Part shown: positions 38,127 to 58,109 of the stretch, one piece after another
How the letters are laid out: each line of letters begins with the position of its first letter
How positions within the stretch are numbered: the first letter of the stretch is position 1
NCBI RefSeq assembly: GCF_030815585.1
Contig: NZ_JAUSWY010000001.1
Span: forward strand, 3,472,001 to 3,536,000
Direction of reading: 5' to 3'
DNA length: 64,000 nucleotides
Source of the DNA: Arthrobacter pascens
GTDB taxonomy: Bacteria; Actinomycetota; Actinomycetes; Actinomycetales; Micrococcaceae
Position numbers and translations under genes: made by a program
The notes under the pieces: model-generated
Databases searched by the model: none
What the model was told of the DNA's origin: nothing
Seen by the model: the letters and a program-made list of their open reading frames with translations, nothing else

Positions 38127-38180
38127 TTGATCGCCCCCCACGCCCTGTTATTATCAAGAGAAAGGCAGTATGTCCTATCA
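38127..38180 (+). promoter_or_regulatory. Promoter and IolR-type operator of the GntR regulator/iolB unit
   Basis: TTGATC (38127-38132) and TATTAT (38149-38154) with a 16-base spacer form a good promoter. TGTCCTATCA at 38171-38180 lies just after the expected start of transcription. It differs at two positions from the TGTCCTGACA sites in front of the inositol operons. The extended reading TGTCCTATCAAGCGGACA also makes an inverted repeat. This suggests autoregulation. Confidence 0.6.
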
Positions 38181-38246
38181 AGCGGACATTTGCCGGACAG
38201 GCGAGGTCGCTTCGCAGCGGGTCGCGCGGCGCAAAGGGAGCATTCC

Positions 38247-38987
38247 ATGGCGGACCAACTCAAGATCAGCATCGACCGCTCTTCGCCGGTGCCCCTGTAC
38301 CACCAGGTGGTGCAAGGCATTGAGGCCGCCATCCACTCGGGGCGGCTGGAACCCGGGAGCCGGCTCGATAACGAGATTGACCTCGCGGCCCGCCTGAATC
38401 TGTCGCGCCCCACCATGCGCAAGGCCATGGACGAACTGGTCCGTTCGGGCCTCCTGGTGCGGAAGCGGGGCGTAGGAACGCAGGTTGTTTCCAGCCAGGT
38501 CAGACGGCCGCTGGAGCTGTCCAGCCTGTTTGATGATCTGAGCAACAACGGGAGCAAACCCACTACGGAGGTGCTGTCCTTCAGCCACGTCGAAGCCGAC
38601 GACGCCACGCGCGAAGCGCTGCATCTTCCGGCGGGTGCCACGGTCTTTCACTTCACCCGCCTTCGGAAAGTGGGCGGCAAGCCTTTGGCCCTGATGGAAA
38701 ACTGGGTGCGCGACGACATCACGGAGATTAACGAGGACCTCCTTTCCAGCCAGGGCCTGTACGGCATCCTGCGCAACGGCGGAGTGAACTTCCGGCTGGC
38801 CACGCAGCGGATGGGCGCCATGGTTGCCAACGAGTACCAGGCCCCGCTTCTGGAAACTACCCCTGGCTCCGCCCTGGTGACCATGGAGCGCACCGCCGTG
38901 GACGACACCGGCAGGAATGTTGAGACAGGCCACCACGTGTACCGCGCCGATTCCTACAGTTTCGAAATGACCCTGGTCCAGCGCTGA
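38247..38987 (+). CDS. GntR/HutC-family regulator, probable inositol repressor
   Basis: A 246-residue regulator. The winged helix lies at residues 10-80 (PLYHQVVQGIEAAIHSGRL, LSRPTMRKAMDELVRSGLLVRKRGVGTQV in part). A UTRA effector domain follows at about 95-240 (FTRLRKVGGKPLALMENWV, DDTGRNVETGHHVYRADSYSF in part). GGGAG stands six bases before ATG 38247. It is followed by iolB on the same strand, and a TGTC-type site lies in its own promoter. This makes it the best candidate for the regulator of all inositol units in the window. The ligand is probably an inositol breakdown product. Confidence 0.85.
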   Translation: MADQLKISIDRSSPVPLYHQVVQGIEAAIHSGRLEPGSRLDNEIDLAARLNLSRPTMRKAMDELVRSGLLVRKRGVGTQVVSSQVRRPLELSSLFDDLSNNGSKPTTEVLSFSHVEADDATREALHLPAGATVFHFTRLRKVGGKPLALMENWVRDDITEINEDLLSSQGLYGILRNGGVNFRLATQRMGAMVANEYQAPLLETTPGSALVTMERTAVDDTGRNVETGHHVYRADSYSFEMTLVQR

Positions 38988-39063
38988 GCGCTGGACCTAA
39001 GCCAGCACTGGATGTTGCCACCGCGCCAGCGGCGGGCGCTAAACGAACGAAAGAGCAAAATCT

Positions 39064-39975
39064 ATGGCCAACTGGGTATATCCGCTGGGTTCCGCCGCCG
39101 AAGGCAGCTGGGACGTTTCCCTGGGAACGTCCGACTCTGCACTGAAAGTGGACGGCTGGGCGCACACGGGGCTGAAGGTTGCGACGCTCGCCGCAGGTGC
39201 CGCCGTCGAACTTCCGACCGCCGGCGAGGAGCGCATTGTGGTTCCGCTGAGCGGATCCTTCACGGCCGCCGTCGACGGCCAGAACTTCCAGCTGGCCGGC
39301 AGGGCCAGCGTCTTCAACGGCCCCAGCGACGTGCTTTATACCGGCACGGAGAAAACCCTCACCATCAGCTCGGCCGACGGCGGCAGGGTTGCCATTGCGA
39401 CCGCTCCGGCCAGGACTTCCTACCCGACCCGGCTTGTGAGTGCTGCCGAAACCCCGGTGGAGCTGCGCGGGGCCGGCAACTGCTCACGCCAAGTGCACAA
39501 TTTCGGCACGCCGGCCGCACTGGAAGCTGACCGTTTCATCGTGTGCGAGGTCATCACGCCGGCGGGCAACTGGTCCTCCTACCCTCCGCATAAGCACGAC
39601 GAGGAAAAGGACGGCGAGACCAGCCTCGAGGAGATCTACTACTTCGAAACCCGGGTTGCGCCCGGCGGCCCGGCGGCACCCTCAGGCGACGACACGCACG
39701 GCGACGCCATCGGCTACCAACGGGTCTACGCCTCCGACGAGCGGCCCATCGATGTCTCGGCGGAAGTCCGCACCGGCGACGTCGTCCTCGTCCCCTACGG
39801 CTGGCACGGGCCCGCCATGGCCGCCCCGGGCTACGACCTGTACTACCTGAACGTGATGGCCGGCCCCGGCCCCGTGCGCGACTGGCTCATCAGCGATGAT
39901 CCACACCACGGCTGGATCCGCCAGACGTGGGAGGGCCAAGACGTGGACCCGCGGCTGCCGTTCGGAACTCAGTAG
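39064..39975 (+). CDS. iolB: 5-deoxy-glucuronate isomerase
   Basis: A 303-residue bicupin that converts 5-deoxy-D-glucuronate to 2-deoxy-5-keto-D-gluconate in inositol catabolism. The family segment SSYPPHKHDE supplies metal-binding histidines, LEEIYYF a glutamate and VPYGWHGP a further histidine, as in KduI/IolB enzymes. The ATG at 39064 follows AAAGAG. It lies 76 bases after the GntR-type regulator, probably in one transcript, and apart from the main iol operon 9-19 kb away. A strong hairpin follows. Confidence 0.94.
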   Translation: MANWVYPLGSAAEGSWDVSLGTSDSALKVDGWAHTGLKVATLAAGAAVELPTAGEERIVVPLSGSFTAAVDGQNFQLAGRASVFNGPSDVLYTGTEKTLTISSADGGRVAIATAPARTSYPTRLVSAAETPVELRGAGNCSRQVHNFGTPAALEADRFIVCEVITPAGNWSSYPPHKHDEEKDGETSLEEIYYFETRVAPGGPAAPSGDDTHGDAIGYQRVYASDERPIDVSAEVRTGDVVLVPYGWHGPAMAAPGYDLYYLNVMAGPGPVRDWLISDDPHHGWIRQTWEGQDVDPRLPFGTQ

Positions 39976-39994
39976 TCCCCAGCAGATACAGACA

Positions 39995-40030
39995 CTGATG
40001 CCCCTCACCGCACACGGTGAGGGGCATCAG
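39995..40030. terminator. Bidirectional terminator between iolB and the transporter operon
   Basis: A perfect 16-bp stem (CTGATGCCCCTCACCG and complement) with loop CACA. It lies 19 bases after the iolB stop and 17 bases beyond the 3' end of the convergent operon. Confidence 0.88.
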
Positions 40031-40047
40031 CCCTATTCGGACGACTT

Positions 40048-41082
40048 TTAGCTTGACACTCTCTGGGCCACACGAATGGGCACGCCTGTGGCCAGGGACT
40101 CCTGGGCGGCGTCCGCCACCCGGGAAGCCGCCAGCGCGTCCTCCGGTGTGCAGGGATTATCGCGCCGGCCCAGGATCAGCTCCACAAAGGCCGCCATCTC
40201 GGAGCGGTAGGCAGCATCGAACCTTTCGGCGAAGGTCCGGTGCGGTTCCCCAGCAGGAAAACCGATGCCGGCTTCGGCCGAGGCCATCGCCGTTTTGTCA
40301 TCAAGCCCCACCATCAGCGATCGGCGGGACCCTTGGATTTCCAGGCGGACATCATGGCCCGCCCCGTTGTAACGGGTGGCGGAGACGGTACCGACAGTCC
40401 CGTCGTCGAACGTCACCAGTGCCAGGGCGGTGTCCACGTCCCCTGCTGCACCGATGGCCGGATCCCCGTTGTTGGAGCCCTTCGCGTACACCTCGACGAT
40501 CTCCCGGCCGGTCAGCCAGCGGAGGATGTCGAAATCGTGGACGGAGCAGTCCCGGAACAGGCCGCCCGAGCTGGCCAGGAATTCCACCGGCGGCGGCACC
40601 ATGTCGCACGTGACCGCCCGCAGCGAGTGGATCCAGCCCAGCTCCCCCGCCTGGTAGGCCCGCCGGGCCTCCTGGTAGCCGTGGTCAAAGCGGCGCTGGT
40701 GGCCGATCTGCACCACGCCCTGCCGGTCGTGGATGTACTCCAGGACCGGCAATGCATCCGCCACGTCCAAAGCCACGGGCTTTTCGCAGAAGACCGGGAT
40801 TCCGGCGTCGACCCCTGCCGTGATCAGCTCAGGGTGCGTGCCGGTGCCGGTGGCAACCACCAGGCCGTCCAGCCCGGACGCCAGAAGCTCGTCCACCGAC
40901 GGGAGGAACTCTGCCCCGAGGCCAGACGCGACGGTCCTGGCATGCTCTTCGGCGACGTCCGTCAGCCGGAGCCGGACGTTGACGCCCTCAGGGTTGAGGG
41001 CCCCGTTGAGGGCGGCGATGTTATTGGCGTGCATCACGCCGATCCGCCCCACTCCCACCAGGCCCAGAACGACGTCTTTCAC
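40048..41082 (-). CDS. Gfo/Idh/MocA oxidoreductase, inositol 2-dehydrogenase-like
   Basis: A 344-residue NAD(P)-dependent dehydrogenase. The N-terminal Rossmann motif is GLVGVGRIGVMHANN and the family motif FCEKPVAL holds the catalytic Lys. A GHQRRFDHGY segment and the HDFDILRWLTG substrate-site helix follow. GTG 41082 follows GGAGG by 7 bases and overlaps the preceding stop as GTGA. It is the last gene of the inositol-type ABC operon, so it probably oxidises an inositol isomer or a related polyol. Paralogues lie at 41864 and 49893. Confidence 0.88.
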   Translation of the reverse strand: MKDVVLGLVGVGRIGVMHANNIAALNGALNPEGVNVRLRLTDVAEEHARTVASGLGAEFLPSVDELLASGLDGLVVATGTGTHPELITAGVDAGIPVFCEKPVALDVADALPVLEYIHDRQGVVQIGHQRRFDHGYQEARRAYQAGELGWIHSLRAVTCDMVPPPVEFLASSGGLFRDCSVHDFDILRWLTGREIVEVYAKGSNNGDPAIGAAGDVDTALALVTFDDGTVGTVSATRYNGAGHDVRLEIQGSRRSLMVGLDDKTAMASAEAGIGFPAGEPHRTFAERFDAAYRSEMAAFVELILGRRDNPCTPEDALAASRVADAAQESLATGVPIRVAQRVSS

Positions 41083-41864
41083 AGTTTGTCCTCCGCATAG
41101 ACCGTGAAGGCGGCACGGAAGGCGTCCAGGGCCGAGTGGCTCCCGCCCCTGGCCCAGGCTTCCATGCCCACGGTTCCCTCGTAGCCGGCCTCCGCGAGCG
41201 CCTTGGCGACGGCCGCGTAATTGATTTCCCCTGTTCCGGGTTCGCACCGGCCCGGGACGTCAGCCACCTGGATTTCGCCGATGTAGGGCAGGGCCGTCCG
41301 CACCAGCTCAATGAGGTTCCCCTCCCCGAGCTGCGCGTGGTACAGGTCCAGCATCAGCTTGGCGTGGGGGTGCCCGGCAGCCTCCACCAGGGCCAGCGTG
41401 TCCTTGGCGCGTGCCAGCGGAATGCCTGGGTGGTCAAGGATGGTGTTGAGGTTCTCGAGGCAGAACGTCACGCCGTGTTTTTCGCCCAGCCTGCCGAGGC
41501 GTTCCAGGGTCCGGGCACCGGTGCTCCACATCCCGCCGGTGGAACGGTACACGGGGCGGGCGGCGTGGCCGTCAATGAGTTCTGCAGGGTGCACCACCAT
41601 GCGGCTGACGCCGAGTTCCAGGGCGGCGGGGATCAGCGATTCCGCCGTCCGCACCACGTCATCGGCAGTGTCGGGGTCCACCAGGCTGCCTGAGGTGTAC
41701 CCCGTCATGGAGGAAAACACTGCACCCGTGGCCTTGAGCGCACTGATGTCCTTGGTCCGGGAATCCCACAGCTCCACATCAAAGCCGGACTCGTGGATCC
41801 GGCGCACGCGTTCCACAAACGGAAGGTCCGTAAAGACCATCTCCGCGCAAACGGCCAGACGCAT
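41079..41864 (-). CDS. TIM-barrel isomerase, hydroxypyruvate isomerase-like
   Basis: A 261-residue xylose-isomerase-like TIM-barrel protein. Visible features are RLAVCAEMVFTDLPF at the start, the metal-ligand strands CLENLNT and LMLDLYHAQ, IGEIQVADVPGR, and GTVGMEAWARGG near the end. This order matches the hydroxypyruvate isomerase (Hyi) and IolI groups. The start ATG 41864 overlaps the previous stop by one base (TGATG). Its place between two dehydrogenases suggests that it isomerises their keto products, such as an inosose. Confidence 0.82.
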   Translation of the reverse strand: MRLAVCAEMVFTDLPFVERVRRIHESGFDVELWDSRTKDISALKATGAVFSSMTGYTSGSLVDPDTADDVVRTAESLIPAALELGVSRMVVHPAELIDGHAARPVYRSTGGMWSTGARTLERLGRLGEKHGVTFCLENLNTILDHPGIPLARAKDTLALVEAAGHPHAKLMLDLYHAQLGEGNLIELVRTALPYIGEIQVADVPGRCEPGTGEINYAAVAKALAEAGYEGTVGMEAWARGGSHSALDAFRAAFTVYAEDKL

Positions 41865-42949
41865 CAGACGGCTGCCGTCTCGTTGACCGCAACCGGAGCG
41901 CCGCGCTTGACCGATTCGATGCACGCCAGCGCCATGGCCAGCGCCCGGCGGGCATCGGCAGCACCGGGGGTCAGGGAGAAATCGGACGACGACGGCACGC
42001 CGTCGCGCCGGGCACGGACCGCACCGGCGAAGTCGACAAGTTCGTCCGTGTACGCCTGGCGGAAGAGCTCCACATTAAGCCGCGGGGTGTCGGCGGACAG
42101 TCCCTCCGCCGTGTACCGGCGTGCCGCCGTTTCCGTGGCGCGGCCGGCCTGGACCATGCCTTTGGAACCGAAGACTTCGCCGCGGATGTCGTACCCGTAC
42201 AGTGCGCTGAAGTTTGCTTCGGCCACGGCCACGGCACCGTTGCTGTAGCGGATGGTCACCACTGCGGTGTCCAGGAACCCCTGGTCGCGCAGGGAGGGTT
42301 CCACGAGCGCGTCCGCCACGGCGTAGACCTGCACGGGCTCGGCACCTTCGTTGAACCAGTTGAGGGTGTCAAAATCATGGATGAGGGTCTCCAGGAAGAT
42401 GGTCCATGCCGGGACCCTGGCCGCGTTCGGGATGCTTCCGGTCCCGGGATCGCGCGTCAGCGAGCGCAGGAGCTGCGGCGTTCCGGCGATGCCTGCGGCC
42501 AGGTCCTTCTTGGCGGCCAGGAAGTCATCGGCGTAGCGCCGGTTGAAGCCGATCTGGAAGTGCACGCCGGCCTCTTCCACCGCTGCGAGCGCAGCGTCGA
42601 GTTCGTCGAGCCCCTGGCCCGCCGGCTTCTCGCAGAAAACGTGCTTGCCGGCGGCCGCGGCCTGTGCGATCAGTGAGGAGTGGAAGCGTGCGGGGCTGGC
42701 GATCACCACCGCATCGATCTCCGAATCGGCCAGGATGTCTTCTGCGTTGGCCGTCACCTTTGCCGTGCCCAGCGCCTGGGCAAGGGCCTGCGCGGATTCC
42801 GCATTGGGATCGGCGATGGCCGCCAGGACTGCGCCCGGGACGCGGCGGGCGATGCTATCGGCATGGAACGCCCCCATCCAGCCGGAGCCGATGAGCCCGA
42901 TCCGTACGGGCAGGACGACGTCGGACGGATTGCGGTTGAGATAAGCCAA
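41864..42949 (-). CDS. Gfo/Idh/MocA oxidoreductase, inositol dehydrogenase-like
   Basis: A 361-residue NAD(P)-dependent dehydrogenase. Rossmann motif: RIGLIGSGWMGAFHADSI. Catalytic lysine motif: HVFCEKPAGQGLDEL. Substrate site: QIGFNRRYADDFLAAKK and ETLIHDFDTLNWF, resembling IolG and IolW enzymes. It is transcribed after the ABC transporter ATPase gene with a 31-base gap. It may handle myo-, scyllo- or chiro-inositol; the exact isomer cannot be read from sequence. Confidence 0.88.
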   Translation of the reverse strand: MAYLNRNPSDVVLPVRIGLIGSGWMGAFHADSIARRVPGAVLAAIADPNAESAQALAQALGTAKVTANAEDILADSEIDAVVIASPARFHSSLIAQAAAAGKHVFCEKPAGQGLDELDAALAAVEEAGVHFQIGFNRRYADDFLAAKKDLAAGIAGTPQLLRSLTRDPGTGSIPNAARVPAWTIFLETLIHDFDTLNWFNEGAEPVQVYAVADALVEPSLRDQGFLDTAVVTIRYSNGAVAVAEANFSALYGYDIRGEVFGSKGMVQAGRATETAARRYTAEGLSADTPRLNVELFRQAYTDELVDFAGAVRARRDGVPSSSDFSLTPGAADARRALAMALACIESVKRGAPVAVNETAAV

Positions 42950-42980
42950 GGGCTTGTCCTTTCAGGAAATGGGACGGCAG

Positions 42981-43898
42981 TTACTGGCGGGTGTTGCCGG
43001 CGGTTTGTGCCACCCCGGCCACTTCGCTCTTAACTTCGGCAACGACGTCCTTGTGGCCGCCCAGCTGTTCGAGCTCGTGGGCGAGTTCGGCGAGTTCCGC
43101 GCCGCCGGCCATCTGGGCAGTCAGCTCGTCGAGGGTGATGTCCTTCTTGTCGTAGTAGCCGATCGACTTGCCGCGCTTGAGCAGCAGGAACCGGTCCCCG
43201 ACAGGGAAGGCGTGGTGCGGGTTGTGGGTGATGAAGATGACCCCGAGGCCGCGGTCGCGGGCCTGGAGGATGTACCGCAGGACCACGCCGGACTGCTTGA
43301 CGCCGAGTGCCGCCGTCGGCTCATCCAGGATCAGCACCTTGGCACCGAAGTACACGGCGCGGGCGATCGCGACACACTGGCGTTCACCGCCGGAGAGCTG
43401 GCCGATGGGCTGCTCCACATCGCGGAGGTCGATGCCCATCTCGGCGAGCTCCTTGAGCGTGATGGCTTTCATCTTCTCGACGTCCAGGCTCCTGAACGGG
43501 CCAAAACCACTGGTCAGCTCCGAGCCGAGGAAGAAGTTCCGCCAGATCGGCATCAGCGGTACAACAGCGAGGTCCTGGTAGACGGTGGCGATTCCGGCGT
43601 CGAGCGCGTCACGGGGCGAGGTGAATTTCCGTTCCTCGCCCATGATGTTCAGGACCCCGGCGTCGTGCTGGTGCAGGCCGGCGATGATCTTGATCAGCGT
43701 GGACTTGCCCGCACCGTTATCACCCAGGACACAGGTGACGCGGCCGTTGTCCACGGCCATGGTGACATCGCTCAACGCGAGGATGTTGCCGTAGTTTTTC
43801 CCCACCTTGGTCAACGAGAGCAGGTGCACGGGGGTGTGGGTCAGCGGGTCCGTCTCGTTCCGGAGCAGTGTGGTTTGGTCGATTTCTTTGGCATTCAT
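42981..43898 (-). CDS. Sugar/inositol ABC transporter ATPase, single domain (FrcA-like)
   Basis: A 305-residue ATPase with one complete nucleotide-binding domain: Walker [11 protein letters not shown], signature [16 protein letters not shown], Walker [13 protein letters not shown] and switch His in [13 protein letters not shown]2 transporters usually have a double ATPase of about 500 residues (RbsA). The single-domain form matches FrcA of the fructose/inositol type. ATG 43898 follows GGAG. It lies 14 bases after the permease gene. It should drive uptake of the substrate captured by the lipoprotein at 45027. Confidence 0.92.
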
Positions 43899-43912
43899 GT
43901 TCTCCGGGCCCT

Positions 43913-44953
43913 TTACTTGAGTTCCGCGCGGCGCTTGACGATGAGGTTGACGATGGTGGCCAGCAGCAGCATCAGGCCCAGGAAGAACTTGAACCAGTCC
44001 GGGTTCCACTGCGCGTAGACGATGCCCTTGTTGGCCATGCCGAAGATGAACGCGCCGATCGCCCCGCCCACGGCCGAGCCGTAGCCGCCGGTGAGAAGGC
44101 AGCCGCCGATGACCGCGGCGATGATGTAGAGGAACTCGTTGCCAACTCCCTCACCGGACTGCACGGTGTTGAAGGCGAAGAGGTTGTGCATGCCCAGGAT
44201 CCAGCCGCAGAAACCGACAGCCATGAACAGGCCGATCTTGGTCTTGGTGACGGGCACACCCACGGCGCGGGCCGCGTTGGCGTCGCCGCCGGCGGCGAAG
44301 ATCCAGTTGCCCACCTTGGTGCGCAGCAGGACCCAGGAAGCCACGATCACCAGGGCGATCCAGACGAACACCGTGATGCTGACGTCGATGCCGCCGATCT
44401 TGATGGTCGAGGCGAACAGCACGCGGGCGGCGTCGAAACCGTCGAGGTCGGACACCGAGGGGGTTGCCACCGCCCCGCCGATCATGCGGGTCAGGCCGAG
44501 GTTGAGGCCGGCAAGCATCAGGAAGGATGCCAGCGTGACGATGAAGCTGGGGAGTTTTGTTTTGACGAGGATCCAGCCGTTGATGAACCCGATGCCCAGG
44601 GACACTACGAGCGCGAAGGCAACTCCGACCCAGATATTTGTGCTGAAGTACCAGCTGAACATGGAGGCTGAGAGGGCTGAGGTGATGACTGCGACGCCGG
44701 TGGAGAGGTCAAATTCGCCACCGATCATCAGCAGGGCCACGCCCACGGCCATGATCCCGATGGTGGAGCTGCCGTACAGCACGGTTGCCAGGGAACCGGG
44801 CTGCAGGAAGACGGGGGCGATGGCGGCAAAGAATACGAAAAGTACCAGAGCGCCGACGAGGGCGCCTATTTCGGGGCGCAACAGCAATTTTTGGATGGTA
44901 TTTCGGGTGCGGACGCGCTCATCTGAGGTGGCGGTTAGGACAGCATTGGCCAT
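43913..44953 (-). CDS. Sugar/inositol ABC transporter permease (CUT2/RbsC type)
   Basis: A 346-residue membrane protein with about ten helices. The characteristic [11 protein letters not shown] and [22 protein letters not shown] (in part) segments of RbsC-like permeases are present. AAGGAG precedes ATG 44953 at good spacing. It works with the single-domain ATPase and the binding lipoprotein in the same operon. Confidence 0.93.
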
Positions 44954-45026
44954 GATTACTAAACTCCTTTGTCTTGGGATGCCGGGCCGGTGCAGGCGCC
45001 CGGCATCCCGACAGTTTTGTTGAGGG

Positions 45027-46019
45027 TTAGCGGATGCCGGCCTGAGCGAACTTGGAGACATCGGCTGCATTGCTCTTGTCGACAACAGCCGGGCCCGTGT
45101 AGACCTGCTGCCCGCCGCCAACCTTGAAACCGCCCACTTTGTTCAGCCAAATGGTGTCCACAGCGCCGTAGCCCTGGAGATAGGGCTGCTGGTCCACGGT
45201 GAACGCGACACTTCCGTCTTCAATGGCCTTGGCCAGCTCGCCGTTCAGGTCGAACGAAGCCACCTTGACCTTGCTGCCTGTTTCCTTCACGGACTTCACA
45301 ATGGTGAGCGTGAACGGGGCGCCGAGACCGATGATCGCGTCGGCGTCCGGCGTGGACTGGAGCTTGGCCGTCACCGTAGAGGAAACGGAGGTCATGTCCG
45401 CGCCGTTGACGTTGAGGATCTCGGAGCCGGGAACCTGTTCCTTGACACCGGCACACCGGTTTTCGTGGCCGACGTGGCCCTGCTCCTGAATCACGCAGAT
45501 CGGGTGCTTGATGCCCTCTGCGGCGAGTCGCTGTCCCACCGTGACACCGGCGAGCTTGTCGCTCTGCCCAAAGTGGGTGATAGCGCCCATAGCCTTCGAC
45601 TGGTCTTCACCGGCGTTGAAGCTCACCACGGGAATCCCCGCGTCCACCGCCTTCTTGACGACGTCCTTCAGGGCCTCGGGCTTGGCCAGCGTGATGAGGA
45701 TACCGTCCACCTTCTGGTCAATGGCCTGCTGCACCAACTGCGCCTGGCGGCCCCCCTCAGCGTCCCCGCTGTAAAGCAGCTCGACGTTGTCCTTCGTCGC
45801 GGCGCTCTCGGCACCCTTCCGGACGATGTCCCAGAACGTGTCGCCGGCGGCCGCGTGGGTGATCATCGCGACCTTCAATCGCGGCGTGTCCGCAACCGTG
45901 CCACCTCCCCCACCATTTACGGTTTCGGTCTTGCCGCCCGTGCTTGAACAGGCGCTCAGGGCCACCATCGGAACGACGGCCGCTATCAGGGCTGCCTTCC
46001 GCCAAGAAATCTTCTTCAC
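45027..46019 (-). CDS. Inositol-type ABC substrate-binding lipoprotein
   Basis: A 330-residue periplasmic-binding-protein-like receptor anchored by lipid. The signal peptide ends in VALSAC, with the modified Cys near residue 24. A Gly-rich linker and a type-I binding fold follow (KVAMITHAAAGDTFWDIVRKGAE, quoted in part: THAAAGDTFWDIV; also DGILITLAKPEAL and VVSFNAGEDQS). This form is close to the ribose/inositol CUT2 group. GTG 46019 has AAGGAG upstream. It is the first gene of the transporter operon, and a TGTCCTGACA site sits at its promoter. Confidence 0.9.
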   Translation of the reverse strand: MKKISWRKAALIAAVVPMVALSACSSTGGKTETVNGGGGGTVADTPRLKVAMITHAAAGDTFWDIVRKGAESAATKDNVELLYSGDAEGGRQAQLVQQAIDQKVDGILITLAKPEALKDVVKKAVDAGIPVVSFNAGEDQSKAMGAITHFGQSDKLAGVTVGQRLAAEGIKHPICVIQEQGHVGHENRCAGVKEQVPGSEILNVNGADMTSVSSTVTAKLQSTPDADAIIGLGAPFTLTIVKSVKETGSKVKVASFDLNGELAKAIEDGSVAFTVDQQPYLQGYGAVDTIWLNKVGGFKVGGGQQVYTGPAVVDKSNAADVSKFAQAGIR

Positions 46020-46083
46020 GATTTTCTCCTTCGATAGGGGCTGCGGCCCTGCGACTCTGCAGGAGCTCAAGGCCCTCCCCTAG

Positions 46084-46128
46084 ATCATGGTGAGTCGCAG
46101 CACGTTTTGTCAATAGTTTGTCCTGACA
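46084..46128 (-). promoter_or_regulatory. Promoter and IolR-type operator of the inositol ABC operon
   Basis: On the minus strand, TTGACA (46108-46113) and CATGAT (46084-46089) are 18 bases apart. TGTCCTGACA at 46119-46128 lies 5 bases upstream of the -35 box, in the longer context AGTTTGTCCTGACAT shared with the tautomerase promoter. Confidence 0.7.
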
Positions 46129-46139
46129 TTAGGATGTTT

Positions 46140-47189: not shown

Positions 47190-47214
47190 ACTTCTCCTTC
47201 GTTACGAGCACGAT

Positions 47215-47272
47215 TAGAACGTTCTAGACATGATGGCGGTCACATGTAACGATAGTCCACTAGAACGATCTA
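47215..47272. promoter_or_regulatory. Pair of LacI-type operators
   Basis: TAGAACGTTCTA at 47215-47226 is a perfect palindrome. TAGAACGATCTA at 47261-47272 differs by one base. They are 46 bases centre to centre in the divergent region between the LacI gene and the isomerase gene. The remaining 47273-47407 shows nothing definite. Confidence 0.7.
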
Positions 47273-47407
47273 AATTATCCCCGCAGAAACGCTCACGGGG
47301 CCAGTAGCTGTCAGAACCACAGTGGCCTCCCCCGTTACCCCCCGTGAAAGAGCATTCGTGGCTGATCCACCACCTCCACAAATTTCGCACCAAAGAACGG
47401 ATACCCA

Positions 47408-48907: not shown

Positions 48908-48922
48908 TCGCGTCGGTCCCCA

Positions 48923-49795: not shown

Positions 49796-49892
49796 GGTCA
49801 CTCCTTTGTGGTTTGGAAAACTTCGATGGTGCGTGCAAGAAGGCGGTCCGCCGGCTGCTGCCGACAGACCGCCTCGTGGTTTGCAGGAGCTG

Positions 49893-50906: not shown

Positions 50907-50965
50907 TGTTCTGTCCTTAGGTATGGGGGGCTGGCTGAAGCTGGTGCCAGCTGACGGTGGTGCTT

Positions 50966-51877
50966 CTAGCTGACGGTGGTGCGGGAGCCGCAGGAGAGCA
51001 GGAAGTTGCGGGTTCGCTTGGCGATGGGCATCGGCACGTCGAAGTCCACGGGGTACATGTCCTGTTCCACGATGCCAAAGATCGGCCGGTTCAGGCCTTC
51101 CACTGCCTCGATGACGGCGCGCAGGTCGGGGAGGCCGTTGGGGGGCTCGGTCATAACGCCGGCGAGGTTGGCCGCTGCCCAGGTCATGTTTTCTTCGTTG
51201 ACTTTCTTCAGGACGTCCGGGTTGATCTGCTTCAGGTGCAGGTAGCCGATGCGGTCCGGGTAGTTCTTGATGAGCTCGAGGCTGGATGCTCCGCAGTATT
51301 CGGCGTGGCCGGTGTCCAGGCACAGATTCAGGTAGTCGGGGTCCGTGGCGGCCAGCAGGGTTTCAATGTCCTGCTGAGCACCAACGTGCGAGTCGGCGTG
51401 CGAGTGGAACTGCTGCTTCAGGCCGAAGTCCTCCAGGAGAACCTTGCCCATGCGGTTGTGGCCCGCGAAGAGGTCCGCCCACTGTTCCTCTGAAAGCTCG
51501 CCGCTTTCCACTGCCTCACCGGTAACATCGTCGCGCCACATGGCCGGAATGACCACGATGTGCTCGCCGCCCATTGCTGCGGTCAATTCGGCCACTTTGC
51601 GGGCCGGCTCCCAGGCCTCGTCGTATTGCCTGGCACCGCGGTGGAAGGCCGTGAAGACCGTTCCCGCGGTGACCTTCAGATCGCGGGCCTTGAGTTCCTC
51701 GGCCAGCCGCGTGGGATCGTTCGGCAGGTACCCGTAGGGACCCAGTTCGATCCACTTGTAACCCGATTCGGCCACTTCGTCGAGGAAGCGTTCCCACGGA
51801 GTCTGTTGGGGATCATCCGCGAACCACACGCCCCACGAGTCCGGAGCGGTGCCGATGATCAGGTTGTTCTTAGTCAT
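50966..51877 (-). CDS. iolE: Inosose dehydratase/isomerase-like TIM-barrel protein (IolE type)
   Basis: A 303-residue TIM-barrel enzyme expected to dehydrate scyllo-inosose to 3D-(3,5/4)-trihydroxycyclohexane-1,2-dione. The start motif GTAPDSWGVWFADDPQQTPW and WIELGPYGYLP are typical of the actinobacterial iol-cluster member. Metal-site strands include QFHSHADSHVG, LNLCLDTGHAEYCG and IGYLHLKQI. AAGGA lies six bases before ATG 51877. The IolI isomerase role cannot be excluded, because the two families share this fold. It sits between iolA and iolG. Confidence 0.83.
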   Translation of the reverse strand: MTKNNLIIGTAPDSWGVWFADDPQQTPWERFLDEVAESGYKWIELGPYGYLPNDPTRLAEELKARDLKVTAGTVFTAFHRGARQYDEAWEPARKVAELTAAMGGEHIVVIPAMWRDDVTGEAVESGELSEEQWADLFAGHNRMGKVLLEDFGLKQQFHSHADSHVGAQQDIETLLAATDPDYLNLCLDTGHAEYCGASSLELIKNYPDRIGYLHLKQINPDVLKKVNEENMTWAAANLAGVMTEPPNGLPDLRAVIEAVEGLNRPIFGIVEQDMYPVDFDVPMPIAKRTRNFLLSCGSRTTVS

Positions 51878-51968
51878 GTCCATTCCTTCTCATCGATTGC
51901 TCCGCAAGCGCCCTTTTGGACGGTCAAAACGGCGGCTGCGGAGCAATCGATCGTGCTGTGTGGGGGTG

Positions 51969-53480
51969 TTAGTTGGACGGGAAGTTGTAGGAGGCGCCGG
52001 AGGCGTGGGTGGGTTCGGGCCAGCGGGACGTAACTACTTTGCCGCGGGTGTAGAAGGAGACGCCTTCGGGGCCGTAGATGTGCTTGTCGCCGAAGAGCGA
52101 TGCCTTCCAGCCGCCGAAGGAGTGGTAGGCGACCGGGACGGGCAGGGGCACGTTGATGCCGATCATGCCCACGGTCACGGAGCGCTGGAACGTGCGGGCG
52201 TTGGCGCCGGAGGAGGTGAAGATGGCGGTGCCGTTCCCGTACGGGTTGGCGTTGATCAGCCTGATGCCTTCCTCCAGGTCAGCGACGCGGACGACGACGA
52301 GGACGGGGCCGAAGATTTCCTCAGTGTAGGCGGTCATCCCGGTCTTCACGTGGTCCAGAACGGTGGGGCCCACCCAGAAGCCGTCCTCGTGGCCCGGGAC
52401 CACCAGGTCACGGCCGTCCACCACCATCGCCGCTCCCGCGGTTTCGGCTTCGGTGACGATCCGGACGATCCTGTCCTTGGAGGCCGTCGTGATGACCGGG
52501 CCCATCTCGGCGCCGGGGACGGTGCCGTTGTTAACCTTCACGGCCAGGGCTCGCTCTTCGACTTTCTTCACCAAAAGGTCCGCGGCCTCACCGACGGCCA
52601 CTGCCACGGAGATGGCCATGCAGCGTTCCCCGGCGGAACCGAAAGCGGCCGCGGCGAGGTGGTCCGCTGCGTTGTCCAGGTCCGCGTCCGGCATGATGAT
52701 CGCGTGGTTCTTCGCCCCGCCCAGCGCCTGGACCCGCTTGCCATGCTTCGTGGCGGTCTCGTGGACGTACTGGGCGATCGGGGTGGAGCCAACGAACGAG
52801 ATCCCGTCCACGTCCGGGTGGGTCAGGAGCCCGTCCACGGTTTCCTTATCCCCGTGCAGGACTTGGAAGACCCCGTCGGGCAGGCCTGCGTCCTTCCAGA
52901 GTTTGGCGAGCAGCATCGAGGCGGAGGGGTCGCGTTCGGAGGGCTTGAGGATGAACGCGTTCCCGGTCGCGATCGCCATGGGCGCCATCCACAACGGCAC
53001 CATCACCGGGAAGTTGAACGGCGTGATCCCGGCCACCACGCCCAGGGGTTCGCGGAAGGAGAAGACATCGATGCCGGTGGAGACCTGATCCGAGTAATCG
53101 CCCTTAAGCAGCTGCGGAATGCCGCAGGCGAACTCCACCACCTCCAGGCCGCGGCCGATCTCGCCCTTCGCATCCGAGAGGACCTTGCCGTGCTCGGCCG
53201 TGATCAGCGCCGCGAGCTCATCCACGTGGGAGGCAACAAGTTCGCGGAACTTGAACAGCACGGCGGTGCGCTTCGCCAGGGAAATATCACCCCAGGAATC
53301 CGCGGCCGCCCGGGCAGCGGCCACCGTGGCATCCAGATCTGCCCGGTTCGCCAGCCGCAGCTCCGCGGACACGGCGCCAGTGGCCGGGTTGTAGACCGGC
53401 TGGGCGCGGTCGCCGTCGCCCGGGGTTTCTGCCCCGTTGATGAAGTGGTTGATGGTGGTGGTGACGGTCGTCGTTGACAT
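51969..53480 (-). CDS. iolA: CoA-acylating methylmalonate-semialdehyde dehydrogenase
   Basis: A 503-residue aldehyde dehydrogenase that converts malonate semialdehyde or methylmalonate semialdehyde to acetyl- or propionyl-CoA, the last step of the pathway. Family marks are TPFNFPVMVPLWM, LKPSERDPSAS, FVGSTPIAQYV and the catalytic Cys in GSAGERCMAIS, the signature of MmsA/IolA. The C-terminus has the usual SRWPEP segment. It follows iolD after 70 bases. Confidence 0.95.
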   Translation of the reverse strand: MSTTTVTTTINHFINGAETPGDGDRAQPVYNPATGAVSAELRLANRADLDATVAAARAAADSWGDISLAKRTAVLFKFRELVASHVDELAALITAEHGKVLSDAKGEIGRGLEVVEFACGIPQLLKGDYSDQVSTGIDVFSFREPLGVVAGITPFNFPVMVPLWMAPMAIATGNAFILKPSERDPSASMLLAKLWKDAGLPDGVFQVLHGDKETVDGLLTHPDVDGISFVGSTPIAQYVHETATKHGKRVQALGGAKNHAIIMPDADLDNAADHLAAAAFGSAGERCMAISVAVAVGEAADLLVKKVEERALAVKVNNGTVPGAEMGPVITTASKDRIVRIVTEAETAGAAMVVDGRDLVVPGHEDGFWVGPTVLDHVKTGMTAYTEEIFGPVLVVVRVADLEEGIRLINANPYGNGTAIFTSSGANARTFQRSVTVGMIGINVPLPVPVAYHSFGGWKASLFGDKHIYGPEGVSFYTRGKVVTSRWPEPTHASGASYNFPSN

Positions 53481-53550
53481 GGTGTTGGACTTCCTTGGTC
53501 TGTGGCTGAGGTGGGTTTGCGGCGGCGCGTGGGCTGTGGCTGGTGCGGGC

Positions 53551-55506
53551 TCAGCCGAGCAGTTTGCGCTGGCGGTTCTTGCGGTCGGTGTAGGTCGTGA
53601 AGGCCTGCCGCGTGGAATCGAGGTCTGAAACCTGGGAGACGGGAACGTCCCACCATGATTCGGAGCTCGGCGCGTCCAGCAGTGGGTCGGATTCAACGTG
53701 GATCAGGATGGGGCCGCCGCGTTCAGGCGCGGCCTTGGCGTCCCGGATGGCCTGTTCGAGTTCGGCGATGACCTTCTCCCCCGGCTCGATCCGGATCACC
53801 TTCACGCCGAGGCTTTCGGCATTCAGGGCCAGGTCCACCGGCAACGTTTCGCCTTCGTCGAAGCTGTGCTGCTCCTCGTTCAGTACCCGGTACTGGGTGC
53901 CGAAACGCTGCGAGCCAAGGGATTCGGAGAGCGAGCCGATGGAGGCGTAGCCGTGGTTCTGGATCAGAACGACGATCAGCTTGATGCGTTCGGCGACGGC
54001 GGTGACCAGTTCGGTGTGCATCATCAGGTAGGAGCCGTCCCCCACCATGACCACGACGTCCCGGTCCGTGCCGCCGCGCGCGGCTTCTGCCAGCGCGGCG
54101 CGCTTGACGCCGAGCCCGCCCGGGATTTCGTAGCCCATGCAGGAATACGCATATTCCACGTGGTAGCCGAACGGGTCACGGACGCGCCACATCTTGTGCA
54201 GGTCGCCGGGCAGGGAACCCGCAGCGCAGATAACGACGTCCTGGGCGTCCATGGCCCGGGACGTGGCGCCGATGATCTCGTTCTGGGCCGGCAGCGGCGT
54301 GAATCGGGTGTCGAAGGCTTCGTCCACCGTCGAGTCCCAGCGCTTCTTCTCCGCGGTGATCGCCGCTTCGAGGTCCGCGCCGACGCGGTAGCCGCCCAGG
54401 GCCTGGTTCAGCTTGACCAGGGCCTTGCGGGCGTCCGCGACGATCGGCAACGACGTGCCGTGCTTGTACGCGTCGATGGCGGCGACATTGATATTGATAA
54501 AGCGCACGTCAGGGTTCTGGAACGCGGTCCGCGAGGCGGTGGTGAAGTCCTCGTAGCGGGTACCGATTCCGATGATCAGATCGGCCTCGGCAGCGATGGC
54601 GTTGGCCGCCGTCGTACCGGTGGAGCCGATCGCGCCGAGCGAGAACTGGTGGTCCCACGGCAGGACGCCGACGCCGGCCTGGGTGTTTCCCACCGGGATG
54701 CCCGTCAACTCAGCAAATGCAGCGAGTTCCTCGTTGGCGTAGGCGTAGAGGACGCCGCCGCCGGCGATGACCAGCGGACGCTTCGCGGCACGGATGGCCT
54801 CCGCGGCACGGCGGATGTCCTCGTCGTCGGCATCGGGGCGGCGGATCCGCCACTCGCGCTCAGCCAGGAACTCCTCAGGCACGTCGAAGGCCTCCGCCTG
54901 GACATCCTGCGGCAGCGAGATGGTGACGGCACCGGTTTCGGCCGGATCCGTCAGGACGCGCAAGCCGTGGTGGAAGGCCGAGAACAGCTGCTCCGGGCGG
55001 GTCACCCGGTCGAAGAATTTGGACAAGGGCCGGAAGGCGTCGTTGACGGTGATGTCGTAGGCGTAGGGCTGCTCGAGCTGCTGCAGGACGGGGTCCGCGG
55101 CGCGGGTGGCAAACGTGTCACTCGGCAGCAGCAGCACCGGCAGTCGGTTGGTGGTGGCCAGCGCGGCGCCGGTGAGCAAATTCGAAGATCCCGGACCGAT
55201 CGAGGTGCTGATGGCAAACGTCTGGCGGCGGCGGGTGTGCCGGGCGTAGCCGACAGCCTGGTGCACCTGGGCCTGCTCGTTGCGGCCCTGGTAGTACGGC
55301 ATGATGCTCGGATCGAGCTGCTGGTACTGCTTCAACGCCTGGCCGACGCCGGCAACGTTGCCGTGGCCGAAGATGCCGAATGTCCCCGGAATCAGCCGCT
55401 CCCGGTACTCAACGCCGCGGATGGAATCGACCGTGTACTGCCTGGAAAGGTACTCGACAACCGCCTGGGCGACTGTCATTCTGCGTGTTGCTGTTCCTGT
55501 ACTCAT
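53551..55506 (-). CDS. iolD: 3D-(3,5/4)-trihydroxycyclohexane-1,2-dione hydrolase
   Basis: A 651-residue ThDP-dependent enzyme that opens the ring to 5-deoxy-D-glucuronate. The N-terminal domain holds GIFGHGNVAGVGQAL and PYYQGRNEQAQVHQAVGYA with the ThDP-activating Glu. The C-terminal domain holds VMVGDGSYLMMHTEL and the motif end QNHGYASIG. Length and order match IolD. ATG 55506 is 7 bases after the stop of the aldolase-like gene in the same operon. Confidence 0.95.
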   Translation of the reverse strand: MSTGTATRRMTVAQAVVEYLSRQYTVDSIRGVEYRERLIPGTFGIFGHGNVAGVGQALKQYQQLDPSIMPYYQGRNEQAQVHQAVGYARHTRRRQTFAISTSIGPGSSNLLTGAALATTNRLPVLLLPSDTFATRAADPVLQQLEQPYAYDITVNDAFRPLSKFFDRVTRPEQLFSAFHHGLRVLTDPAETGAVTISLPQDVQAEAFDVPEEFLAEREWRIRRPDADDEDIRRAAEAIRAAKRPLVIAGGGVLYAYANEELAAFAELTGIPVGNTQAGVGVLPWDHQFSLGAIGSTGTTAANAIAAEADLIIGIGTRYEDFTTASRTAFQNPDVRFININVAAIDAYKHGTSLPIVADARKALVKLNQALGGYRVGADLEAAITAEKKRWDSTVDEAFDTRFTPLPAQNEIIGATSRAMDAQDVVICAAGSLPGDLHKMWRVRDPFGYHVEYAYSCMGYEIPGGLGVKRAALAEAARGGTDRDVVVMVGDGSYLMMHTELVTAVAERIKLIVVLIQNHGYASIGSLSESLGSQRFGTQYRVLNEEQHSFDEGETLPVDLALNAESLGVKVIRIEPGEKVIAELEQAIRDAKAAPERGGPILIHVESDPLLDAPSSESWWDVPVSQVSDLDSTRQAFTTYTDRKNRQRKLLG

Positions 55507-55513
55507 GGGGACG

Positions 55514-56437
55514 TTACTCCGATACTTTCGCTGATGACTGCAGCACGGGCGACTTGAGCAGCGAGGCGGCGGTGGCGACGGCCCCTGCCACATCGCCGTC
55601 GGCCGGGTATAGCAGCGCCCGGCCCACGGTGAGGCCCTGGACCCCGGGCAGGGCCAACGCGGCCTGCCAGCTGGCGAAGACCTCATCCTGGGTGCCTTCC
55701 GGGTCCCCGCCCAGGAGCACTGTCGGCAGCGTGGTTGCCGCCATCACGCGCTCCATCTCGGCCACCACTGGCAGCTTCATCCACGTGTAGGCGCTCGTGG
55801 AGCCCAGGCTCTGGGCGATCGCGATGGACTTGATGACGGCGTCCGGGCTGAGGTCGTTGCGGACCCTGCCGTTCTTCCAGACCGAGAGGAACGGTTCCAC
55901 CATCGCGATCAGCTTGCGTGCCGCGAGGGAATCGACCGCCCGCGCCGTGGCTTCCAGGGCGGAGGCGGTGTCCGGGTCGCCGAGGCAGATCCGGGTCAGC
56001 ATCTTGCCGCCGTCGGCCCCCAGTGCCTCCAGGGCTGCGGCCGTGTGGCCGGTGAACCGGTCATCGATTTCATTGACGAGCCCGGCCAGGCCACCACGGT
56101 TCATCGAGCCGAAGACAAGCTTGCCTTCCAGCGCCCCGAGGAGAAGCAGGTCATCCATGATGTCCGGGGACGCCAGGACACCGTCCACGGCGGGATTAGC
56201 CAGGGCGATCTGCAAACGGTCCAACAAATCCAGGCGGTCCGCCATGGCCACCGGATCATTTCCCACCGAGAGGGCCCCCCGGGCCGGATGGTCGGCAGCA
56301 ACAATGAAGTTCTGCACCCCATACTTCAGTCCCGGATGGCGGCGACGGGTGGCTGCCGCGCGGGCAACGGCGTCGGGGTCTTCGAGCCGGAGCGCGCTGA
56401 GGTGCTGGTAGCGGCGGGGATCATCGTTGGCGCTCAA
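55514..56437 (-). CDS. Aldolase-like TIM-barrel protein of the iol operon
   Basis: A 307-residue protein related to class I aldolases of the deoxyribose-phosphate/LacD type, as found in corynebacterial iol clusters. Visible segments are LKYGVQNFIVAADHPARG, GVLASPDIMDDLLLLGAL, GSTSAYTWMKLPVV with a candidate Schiff-base Lys, and LTVGRALLYP. The operon has no gene recognisable as iolJ. This protein may therefore cleave 2-deoxy-5-keto-D-gluconate 6-phosphate, the product of the IolC kinase, whose stop it overlaps by four bases (ATGA). That function is an inference. Confidence 0.75.
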   Translation of the reverse strand: MSANDDPRRYQHLSALRLEDPDAVARAAATRRRHPGLKYGVQNFIVAADHPARGALSVGNDPVAMADRLDLLDRLQIALANPAVDGVLASPDIMDDLLLLGALEGKLVFGSMNRGGLAGLVNEIDDRFTGHTAAALEALGADGGKMLTRICLGDPDTASALEATARAVDSLAARKLIAMVEPFLSVWKNGRVRNDLSPDAVIKSIAIAQSLGSTSAYTWMKLPVVAEMERVMAATTLPTVLLGGDPEGTQDEVFASWQAALALPGVQGLTVGRALLYPADGDVAGAVATAASLLKSPVLQSSAKVSE

Positions 56438-57468
56438 GACGCTGCTCCTTCGGAAACTGTGGTGTGGGACGGGCGTGCGGCAGCGGCACCGGCGAGGGCG
56501 GGTGCCAAGCGGCCGCGTTCGGCCAGCAGCGTGGTGACTTCCTCCGGCGTCGGCATGGCGTCGGCGCAGGAAAGGCGGGAGGCCACGATGGCGCCGGCGG
56601 CGTTGGCGTAATCCAGGACCTGGGCCAGCGGCCAGCCGGACAGCAGTCCGTGGCAGAAGGCTCCGCCGAACGAGTCACCGGCGCCGAGGCCGTTGACGGT
56701 TTGCACCGGGACCGGCGCGGACACAACACGTTCGGTGCGGGTCTTCGCCATCACGCCTTCCGGCCCAAGCTTGACCACGGCGATCTCGACGCCGGCGGCC
56801 AGCAGCCGGTCGGCCTGCTCGTCAGGGGTCCCTTCGCCCACGGCGACGGCACATTCCTTGTCATTGCCGATAGCCACCGTGACATGCGGCAGGATCTTGG
56901 CAATCTCGGCCCGCGCGTCCTCTTCGGAGGCCCAGAACATGGGCCGGTAGTCCAGGTCCAGGATGGTGTACTGGCCTTCCTTGAGACCGGTCCGCGGACG
57001 GGCGGCGTGGGCGGCCAGATGGGCCTCGCGGCTGGGCTCCTGGCACAGGCCAGTCACCGTCGACCAGAAGATCCCGGCCTCGCGGATGGCATCAAGGTCC
57101 AGTTCCGCGGCTTTGATCTGCAGGTCCGGCGCCGTGGGGAAACGCCCGTAGAAGTAGAGCGGAAAATCATCAGGGGGCATGATGGCGCAGAACGTCACCG
57201 CTGTCGGCCACTCCTGCACCGGCGTCACGAACGTATCGTCCACGTTGAACTTGTGCAGTTCACGGTGGAGGTATTTCCCGAAGGCGTCGTCGCCGGTGCG
57301 CGTGATCACGCCTGCATTGCGGCCATGCCGCGCAGCGGCCACGGCCACATTGGACGCGGAACCACCGAGGTACTTCCCGAAGGACGTCACGTCCTCCAGG
57401 CCCACCCCGATGTCGTTCGGATAGATATCAACGCTGATGCGCCCGATCGTGAGCAGTTCGTGGGTCAC
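56434..57468 (-). CDS. iolC: 5-dehydro-2-deoxygluconokinase
   Basis: A 344-residue PfkB-family kinase that phosphorylates 2-deoxy-5-keto-D-gluconate. PfkB marks are the N-terminal GKYLGGSASNVAVAAARHG and the C-terminal NGLGAGDSFGGAFCHG with the catalytic Asp. The domain fills the whole protein. The C-terminal aldolase-like extension seen in some proteobacterial IolC proteins is absent, and a separate aldolase-like gene follows. It is the first gene of the catabolic operon, with a pair of operators in front. Confidence 0.94.
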   Translation of the reverse strand: MTHELLTIGRISVDIYPNDIGVGLEDVTSFGKYLGGSASNVAVAAARHGRNAGVITRTGDDAFGKYLHRELHKFNVDDTFVTPVQEWPTAVTFCAIMPPDDFPLYFYGRFPTAPDLQIKAAELDLDAIREAGIFWSTVTGLCQEPSREAHLAAHAARPRTGLKEGQYTILDLDYRPMFWASEEDARAEIAKILPHVTVAIGNDKECAVAVGEGTPDEQADRLLAAGVEIAVVKLGPEGVMAKTRTERVVSAPVPVQTVNGLGAGDSFGGAFCHGLLSGWPLAQVLDYANAAGAIVASRLSCADAMPTPEEVTTLLAERGRLAPALAGAAAARPSHTTVSEGAAS

Positions 57469-57580
57469 GGTAATCGCGGACCTTTCTGATTTGAACTCTG
57501 TACCTCTGAACAGCTAGTGCTCCGGTTCCTGGCCGGCCCCCGTGAGCGGGGCCACATCCACTACTTTGCCCTAAAACCAT

Positions 57581-57606
57581 TGTCCTGTCAAAGGTTTGTA
57601 CTGACA
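57581..57606 (-). promoter_or_regulatory. Tandem IolR-type operators of the iol catabolic operon
   Basis: TGTCCTGTCA at 57581-57590 and TGTACTGACA at 57597-57606 each differ by one base from TGTCCTGACA and are 16 bases apart. The first overlaps a minus-strand TTGACA (57586-57591), a likely -35 box, which fits a repressor. The rest of 57469-57675 is leader without a gene. Confidence 0.7.
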
Positions 57607-57675
57607 TATTTACAACACGGCATAATGCGGCAAACCGGCGTCCGGGAACCGCTTATGCAGGACTTCGGGCGTCGG

Positions 57676-58080
57676 CTATTTGCGGGGAACCGACAGTTCT
57701 CCCGTGACGTATTGGGCCCGCCCGAAGCCGAAGGACCAGTCGCCGGCGGAATTCTCCACGTATCCGATAAATACATCCTCACCGGCAACATCCAGCTCCG
57801 CCAACCGGTCAGCAATCGCCGCAAAAAGGGACTGCTTCGCCTCCTGGCTCCTGCCGGCCTGCGTAAAGATCTGGATCATCACCACATCGGGGGTGCGCTC
57901 GAAGCCCAGCCCTGCATCCTGGGCCACAATCTGGCCCTGCTGGTGCTCGGTCAGGACGTGGAAATAGTCCCGCTCTGGGATTGCATACTCCGCGAGGATT
58001 GCATCATGGATGCCCTGACTCAGTCGGCGCAGCTCGTCGGCGCTGCGCCCTTGATTGACATCGATTCGTACCAATGGCAT
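57676..58080 (-). CDS. Tautomerase-family protein with an iol-type operator
   Basis: A 134-residue protein of the 4-oxalocrotonate tautomerase superfamily. The initiator Met is followed by Pro (MPLVRIDVNQG), the catalytic base of this group. IHDAILAEYAIPERDYFHVL and RTPDVVMIQIF follow, as in the longer Tautomerase_3-like members. It is on the same strand as the iol operon, 207 bases upstream of iolC, with its own TGTCCTGACA site at 58100-58109. It may enolise a keto or diketo inositol intermediate. This role is inferred from co-regulation alone. Confidence 0.82.
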   Translation of the reverse strand: MPLVRIDVNQGRSADELRRLSQGIHDAILAEYAIPERDYFHVLTEHQQGQIVAQDAGLGFERTPDVVMIQIFTQAGRSQEAKQSLFAAIADRLAELDVAGEDVFIGYVENSAGDWSFGFGRAQYVTGELSVPRK

Positions 58081-58099
58081 GTCTTCATCTCCCTAAGTT

Positions 58100-58109
58100 T
58101 GTCCTGACA
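58100..58109 (-). promoter_or_regulatory. IolR-type operator of the tautomerase gene
   Basis: TGTCCTGACA matches the site in front of the inositol ABC operon. On the minus strand it directly follows TAGTAT, which with TTGCTC 18 bases upstream forms a plausible promoter. Confidence 0.65.

Follow-up and report, generated by a model that had tools for sequence, protein, structure and literature searches.

Five short sites in a 64,000-nucleotide stretch of the genome of the soil bacterium Arthrobacter pascens (contig NZ_JAUSWY010000001.1; hereafter the window, to whose positions coordinates refer unless a genome position is named) precede four inositol-related units: gntR-iolB, an ATP-binding cassette (ABC) uptake operon with IolG-like genes, the operon headed by iolC, and a gene labelled as a tautomerase. 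It is highly probable that the five sites are the operators of one inositol-catabolism regulon, and that the GntR/HutC-type protein encoded at 38247-38987 binds them and represses the four units, the last of which would encode a decarboxylase. The sites, their conservation, their targets, their link to this GntR protein and not to the neighbouring LacI-family protein, and the likely identity of the enzyme were established by computation.

Proposed operator sites in the window and their motif

The five operator strings listed in an earlier note on this DNA were all found exactly at the coordinates in Table 1, and the longer context that it described as common to two of them proved to be a 15-mer, AGTTTGTCCTGACAT, present at both 46115-46129 and 58096-58110. 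Its description of a single type, TGTC-N2-GACA, held in part: two of the five sites agree exactly, whereas 57581 and 57597 are off by one base and 38171 by two.

A motif was sought by expectation-maximisation with 40 random starts in 57 upstream regions of fetched GntR and IolC orthologue loci, the window being left out. The motif obtained, TTTGACAGGACAT (the reverse complement of ATGTCCTGTCAAA), has 22.5 bits over 14 columns. When the window was scanned with it, the five sites ranked first to fifth (24.6, 23.6, 21.1, 19.0 and 16.8 bits), and the next-best match reached 13.2 bits; first-order Markov sequences of 64 kb rendered 0.15 matches at or above 16.8 bits. Because the window had been kept out of training, this ranking is not circular.

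Bare-word statistics in the window were mixed and are not relied on. With at most one mismatch, TGTCCTGACA showed 10 matches against a shuffle mean of 3.5, and none of 100 shuffles reached 10; for its part, TGTNNTGWCA showed five matches (four of the earlier-noted sites plus 491-500) against a shuffle mean of 2.2, and 7 of 100 shuffles reached five. The sixth site, an exact TGTCCTGACA at 491-500 that was absent from the earlier note, lies within the open reading frame (ORF) 205-783. It ranks joint first by the symmetrised 10-base core and falls outside the top 22 by the 14-column motif, so that the A/T flanking bases distinguish it from the five sites; it was not accepted as an operator. The ORF itself is similar to a CG0192-related family (147.1 bits, cut-off 165).

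The expectation that each site lies at a plausible promoter was borne out by a consensus scan at the gntR and ABC sites. At gntR, the promoter-like TTGATC-16-TATTAT occupies 38127-38154, and operator 1 starts 17 bases after TATTAT; at the ABC operon, TTGACA-18-CATGAT lies on the minus strand (46113-46084), and operator 2 sits 5 bases upstream of TTGACA. No promoter pair passed the scan at iolC, where the proximal site 3a contains a conserved TTGACA. At 58100 the sole match was a distant pair, TTGATA-16-TATAAT (minus strand, 58208-58181), which ends 71 bases upstream, the site being located between it and the start codon. These operator positions relative to the promoters would suit a repressor.

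Conservation of the proposed operators and their targets

The pattern of targets was analysed in 80 named loci around the GntR gene (Arthrobacter, Pseudarthrobacter, Paenarthrobacter, relatives and one labelled Sporosarcina; 1.55 Mb). These contained 171 sites of at least 15 bits; the same loci gave 4 when the motif was reversed and, over 30 column permutations, an average of 4.0 and a maximum of 28. When counts were restricted to genes with enough upstream sequence, the operator was observed before gntR in 80/80 cases, before the ABC substrate-binding gene abcSBP in 45/45 and before iolC in 7/7. It preceded iolB in 1 of 82, iolG2 in 1 of 34 and arsR in 2 of 5, and none was found before abcATP (0/51), abcPerm (0/49), iolG1 (0/57), iolG3 (0/61), iolE (0/35), iolA (0/27) or iolD (0/25). 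For iolG1, the start estimate accounts for part of the zero, strong sites being located just before an iolG1-type gene in loci L119, L121, L126, L127 and L130. LacI genes of at least 50% identity had no operator (0/2), and 15 of 27 other LacI genes had one. Of the 171 sites, two carried a label that placed them within mapped genes, and for six no gene was mapped downstream; one more, assigned to iolB in L105, overlaps gntR at its end.

Similarly, in the fetched family (Micrococcaceae) loci, our own included, a site of at least 15 bits was present before gntR in 30/30 and before iolC in 28/29, these loci being largely the training data. All these genomes are closely related, and gntR and iolC served as training classes; abcSBP did not, which makes the ABC count the independent one. 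With the same five sites found by a window-free motif and the target pattern kept in the 80 named loci, the earlier claim that the operator precedes four inositol-related units is supported.

The consensus was TATGTCCTATCAAgcGAACAta before gntR (80 named loci), CTaaTGtcAGGACAaAcTattgac before the ABC operon (36 loci in the main orientation) and a tandem block, TGT.aataTGTCagtACAAAc.TTTGACAGGACAt, before iolC (28 family loci). A TTGTAAATA block directly upstream of the distal iolC operator (57607-57615, minus strand) is likewise conserved in the 28-locus consensus. As to the contig labelled Sporosarcina beigongshangi (L174), its GntR protein is 79% identical, and it is mislabelled, contaminated or transferred.

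The whole genome was scanned with degenerate (IUPAC) patterns, exact and with one mismatch, the latter search recovering four of the five operators. When up to one mismatch was allowed, TTGWYAGGACAWW had 24 matches in 4.73 Mb, and the pattern read backwards had 14. Four of the 24 are the window operators, the fifth (57597) exceeding the mismatch limit; the remaining 20 comprise 18 in open frames of at least 200 aa, which are stop-to-stop stretches and not proof of genes, and two outside such frames. The earlier suggestion that the window holds the whole regulon was nearly right, although the pattern may miss weaker sites. One strong match outside long frames, at genome position 2332205-2332217 (L254:6206-6218; 24.2 bits), has a resolvase-like fragment on one side and an IS3-type transposase on the other (both by eye), with ThuA-like and triosephosphate isomerase (TIM)-barrel sugar genes nearby; no inositol gene was recognised beside it, and it is unexplained, a relic or chance. 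An exact copy at genome position 185552 was not taken as a site. It is found where a 522-aa ORF begins, at the upstream edge; by eye the product is a response regulator that also has a phosphatase domain, and no inositol gene was seen there.

The GntR protein as probable regulator, and the alternatives

The GntR gene tracks iolC closely. In a family sample of 120 genomes, with an orthologue threshold of E <=5.2e-70 (next best in another genome, 4.9e-28), GntR was found in 40 genomes and iolC in 39; both were present in 39, GntR only in one (G061) and iolC only in none, so that GntR occurs in 39/39 genomes with iolC compared with 1/81 without it. Among 394 genomes of the class (Actinomycetes, as judged from named relatives), 120 had both, 5 had GntR only, 21 had iolC only and 248 had neither. 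The operator also accompanies the regulator in other families: a site of at least 15 bits was observed before GntR orthologues of 51-58% identity in 18 of 27 loci, the best-scoring of 122 such genomes, compared with 0 of 540 mononucleotide shuffles, and several of the remaining loci had TGTCTAGACA or TGTAAAGACA as best match. The helix LSRPT and the wing GVGTQVV were common to the 35 GntR rows compared, L191 and L192 each departing at a single residue. The co-occurrence with iolC, the operator before its own gene and the separate operator of the LacI protein (see below) all favour the GntR/HutC protein, which had been named earlier as the natural candidate.

Several observations weigh against a single GntR-run regulon. 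The counts for gntR and iolC depend in part on the training set, and the genomes are related to one another; p-values and Fisher values are therefore nominal only. The promoter scan backs two of the four units. No GntR was found at E 1e-45 in 21 of the 141 iolC genomes of the class, at most 7 candidates being scored per genome. Outside the family, the motif stands directly before iolC in just 4 of 27 loci (two of the 27 being from genomes in which no GntR was found), compared with 1 of 18 in genomes without a GntR found, the latter regions being longer (~535 versus 370 bases); targets may thus shift there, or iolC may not be first in its operon. A 22.4-bit match at genome position 1005933 lies inside a 354-aa open frame, so that score alone does not make a site. 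Finally, an operator reaching 12 bits is missing before the gene in 4 of 21 family orthologues of the decarboxylase, and among the 17 that have one, a single site is weak (12.8 bits).

A regulator encoded elsewhere might bind the sites, the GntR gene merely riding in the cluster. The genome does contain other regulators, including a second HutC-type paralogue (35% identity) at genome position 117564, and this explanation would accommodate the iolC genomes of the class without such a GntR. However, all iolC genomes of the family carry GntR, and the operator is found before gntR itself in all named and family loci and in two-thirds of the other-family loci, the usual mark of autoregulation, which argues against a regulator encoded elsewhere; we consider it improbable.

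Control by the LacI-family protein (46140-47189) has a still lower probability. Its gene is directly upstream of the ABC operon, the site 46119-46128 lying 11 bases past its stop codon, and in other Micrococcaceae a different LacI gene (product 33-37% identical to this one) is preceded by a TGTC-type operator (the 15 of 27 cases above). Nevertheless, in 15/15 loci of LacI orthologues (45-100% identity, our own included) TAGAWCGWTCTA was found with at most one mismatch before the gene itself, in 14 of them twice, and the TGTC-type site was absent upstream in all 15 by the three patterns scanned; this LacI very likely has its own operator. Moreover, it was present in only 15 of 39 iolC genomes at E <=2.8e-64, and iolC operators occur without a LacI match, for example in G039, G086 and G106 (loci L040, L038 and L043). 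The LacI protein was thus rejected as owner of the five operators on the strength of its own conserved TAGAWCGWTCTA.

The two TAGAWCGWTCTA palindromes (47215-47272) mark a second regulatory system between lacI and a divergent TIM-barrel gene, 47408-48373. In L119, L121, L122, L126, L127, L130, L139, L152, L159, L178 and L179, a different LacI gene has a strong TGTC-type operator (22-25 bits), which suggests that GntR controls a second regulator in those relatives and makes a two-tier network likely in some species.

The least credible explanation of all is that TGTC/GACA words arose by chance at these places, or that the sites are no more than conserved -35 boxes. In its favour, one bare-word form is not rare (its count is reached in 7 of 100 shuffles), TTGACA makes up part of the proximal iolC site, and the exact copy at 491-500 has no role. 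Against it, 10-14 base pairs (bp) are conserved at each unit at differing positions relative to the promoter (upstream, over, downstream), and most other iol genes have no such site before them, or hardly any.

Binding by the GntR protein, repression and the effector are predictions from sequence. The IolR-like repressor, with its UTRA effector domain, would bind the five sites as a dimer when an inositol-derived effector is absent, and would hold down its own gntR-iolB unit, the ABC uptake/IolG operon, the iolC-D-A-E-G operon and the decarboxylase gene. At iolC two operators 16 bp apart would be bound, the proximal one covering the conserved TTGACA; at gntR the operator would act just downstream of the -10 element, and at the ABC operon it would abut the -35 element.

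The regulon is IolR-like: it adds a new and well-supported case to a kind of switch already known, and is very probably run by the adjacent GntR-type repressor. In Corynebacterium glutamicum, IolR is a GntR-type repressor of myo-inositol genes with probable negative autoregulation and derepression by myo-inositol, according to PMC8634428; IolR and the iol regulon of that species were also treated by Klaffl et al. 2013, as cited in PMC12298647. Like that IolR, the protein described here has a GntR-type helix-turn-helix (HTH) and an effector domain, and operators are located before inositol units and before its own gene; unlike in the C. glutamicum regulon, the targets include the ABC/IolG operon and the decarboxylase gene. 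The C. glutamicum IolR motif is reportedly KGWCHTRACA, and by eye the two exact TGTCCTGACA sites fit this form and the other three have one mismatch each. Among solved structures, the UTRA domain matched 2p19 (E 1.8e-25), which we take to be a C. glutamicum GntR protein, and the closest by sequence was 2ra5 (E 3.1e-65), presumably SCO6256. Titles cited in PMC6608401 describe SCO6974 and SCO6256 of Streptomyces coelicolor as GntR regulators of myo-inositol genes, a task like that proposed here. For the use of inositol, a carbon source that comes from plants, the window offers an operator and a regulator that can be tested across Micrococcaceae, and the consensus ATGTCCTGTCAAA and its variants predict targets.

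A probable decarboxylase in the regulon, and gene content

The 134-aa product labelled tautomerase is likely, from its sequence, a malonate semialdehyde decarboxylase (MSAD) of the FG41 type. The best solved chain by sequence search was FG41 MSAD, 3mjz (E 4.1e-46), and the protein carries all nine signature residues (Pro1, Asp37, Thr72, Gln73, Arg76, Trp114, Phe116, Tyr123 and Leu128) named for FG41 MSAD in PMC10606566.

An MSAD match was found in 23 of the 120 family genomes, and every one of these belongs to the 39 that have iolC (nominal hypergeometric value, 1.4e-14). In the 21 family orthologues (at least 61% identity, our own left out), the nine residues were kept in all, iolC was within 1.5 kb in 19, and an operator of at least 12 bits was present before 17. 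The copy of the remaining genome (39-40% identity, L309) lacks two signature residues, the operator and a nearby iolC. Class-wide, an MSAD match was found in 12 of 394 genomes; in G348, from another family (44% identity, two residues differing), the gene adjoins iolC, and in L313 (48% identity) a 14-bit site lies upstream of it.

The IolJ aldolase releases malonate semialdehyde, on which IolA then acts, and since the pathway yields this compound, the MSAD identity suits the setting. The enzyme would probably remove this by-product of the pathway under operator control, turning inositol-derived malonate semialdehyde into acetaldehyde and CO2 alongside IolA, which leads to acetyl-CoA. FG41 MSAD is reportedly an enzyme of chloroacrylate degradation; the product of 57676-58080 has the same signature residues, and unlike that enzyme its gene stands alone under an inositol operator in Micrococcaceae. 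We lean slightly towards the view that inositol catabolism, with these two exits for malonate semialdehyde, is the native task of FG41-type MSAD in Micrococcaceae, the IolR-like repressor controlling it as a unit of its own beside iolC, and that the MSADs of chloroacrylate and dichloropropene degraders were recruited from the inositol regulon. If true, this regulon supplies the missing natural context of these tautomerases. The findings also suggest that the gene called phenylpyruvate tautomerase PptA in some sources encodes an MSAD, and they place that enzyme in a physiological setting.

In PMC10606566, MSAD in general is tied to 1,3-dichloropropene, and IolK of Lactobacillus casei is among the MSAD-family proteins studied; PMC2530867 counts iolK among the genes that make up the iol operon of this species. 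With IolK in print, the idea of an MSAD in inositol catabolism is not new in kind, the new part being the actinobacterial regulon and the origin of the FG41-type enzymes. A literature search pairing malonate semialdehyde decarboxylase with inositol yielded one paper, on a Bacillus protease; it mostly did not cover subscription papers, and the link is not claimed to be unpublished.

The features of the window are collected in Table 1. The aldolase-like product of 55514-56437 likely takes the IolJ role, as judged from the position of its gene.

Table 1. Operators and genes of the proposed regulon and its surroundings (PWM, position weight matrix, here the 14-column motif; bits are profile scores, given with their cut-offs)
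Feature	Positions	Strand	Remarks
Operator 1, TGTCCTATCA	38171-38180	.	Upstream of gntR-iolB; PWM rank 2 in window; extended form ATGTCCTATCAAGCGGACAT at 38170-38189
Operator 2, TGTCCTGACA	46119-46128	.	Upstream of ABC/iolG operon; PWM rank 4
Operator 3a, TGTCCTGTCA	57581-57590	.	iolC-proximal; PWM rank 1; minus-strand form TTTGACAGGACA includes TTGACA
Operator 3b, TGTACTGACA	57597-57606	.	iolC-distal, 16 bp from 3a; PWM rank 5
Operator 4, TGTCCTGACA	58100-58109	.	Upstream of decarboxylase ('tautomerase') gene; PWM rank 3
GntR/HutC-type regulator (GntR HTH + UTRA), proposed IolR-like repressor	38247-38987	+	PF00392, PF07702, both above gathering cut-offs
iolB, 5-deoxy-glucuronate isomerase	39064-39975	+	Downstream of gntR; TIGR04378 275.5 bits, cut-off 205
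IolG-like inositol dehydrogenase	40048-41247	-	TIGR04380 291.6 bits, below cut-off 355
Xylose-isomerase-like TIM barrel	41079-41924	-	PF01261
IolG-like inositol dehydrogenase	41864-42949	-	TIGR04380 306.4 bits, below cut-off 355
ABC sugar ATP-binding protein	42981-44009	-	
ABC sugar permease	43913-45121	-	
ABC substrate-binding protein (rhizopine/inositol type)	45027-46070	-	First gene of operon; NF052284 192.3 bits, below cut-off 420; ORF start is an upper bound
LacI-family regulator	46140-47189	-	Rejected as owner of the operators
Proposed LacI operator, TAGAACGTTCTA	47215-47226	.	Upstream of LacI gene
Second proposed LacI operator, TAGAACGATCTA	47261-47272	.	Upstream of LacI gene
TIM-barrel isomerase-like protein	48923-50065	-	End of iolC gene run; PF01261
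IolG-like inositol dehydrogenase	49893-51323	-	NF052679 301.9 bits, below cut-off 540
iolE-like inosose dehydratase	50966-51883	-	TIGR04379 141.6 bits, below cut-off 290
iolA, coenzyme A-acylating (methyl)malonate-semialdehyde dehydrogenase	51969-53696	-	TIGR01722 719.5 bits, cut-off 448.5
iolD	53551-55686	-	TIGR04377 830.9 bits, cut-off 715
Aldolase-like protein	55514-56437	-	Weak TIGR01949 match, E 4.7e-4, below cut-off
iolC, 5-dehydro-2-deoxygluconokinase	56434-57468	-	TIGR04382 358.1 bits, cut-off 300
'Tautomerase', likely FG41-type MSAD	57676-58080	-	3mjz E 4.1e-46; 9/9 signature residues

Beyond these units, the ORF at 60143-61393 encodes a major facilitator superfamily (MFS) efflux protein near the Cmx/CmrA chloramphenicol family, although its 338.8 bits fall short of the cut-off, 400.

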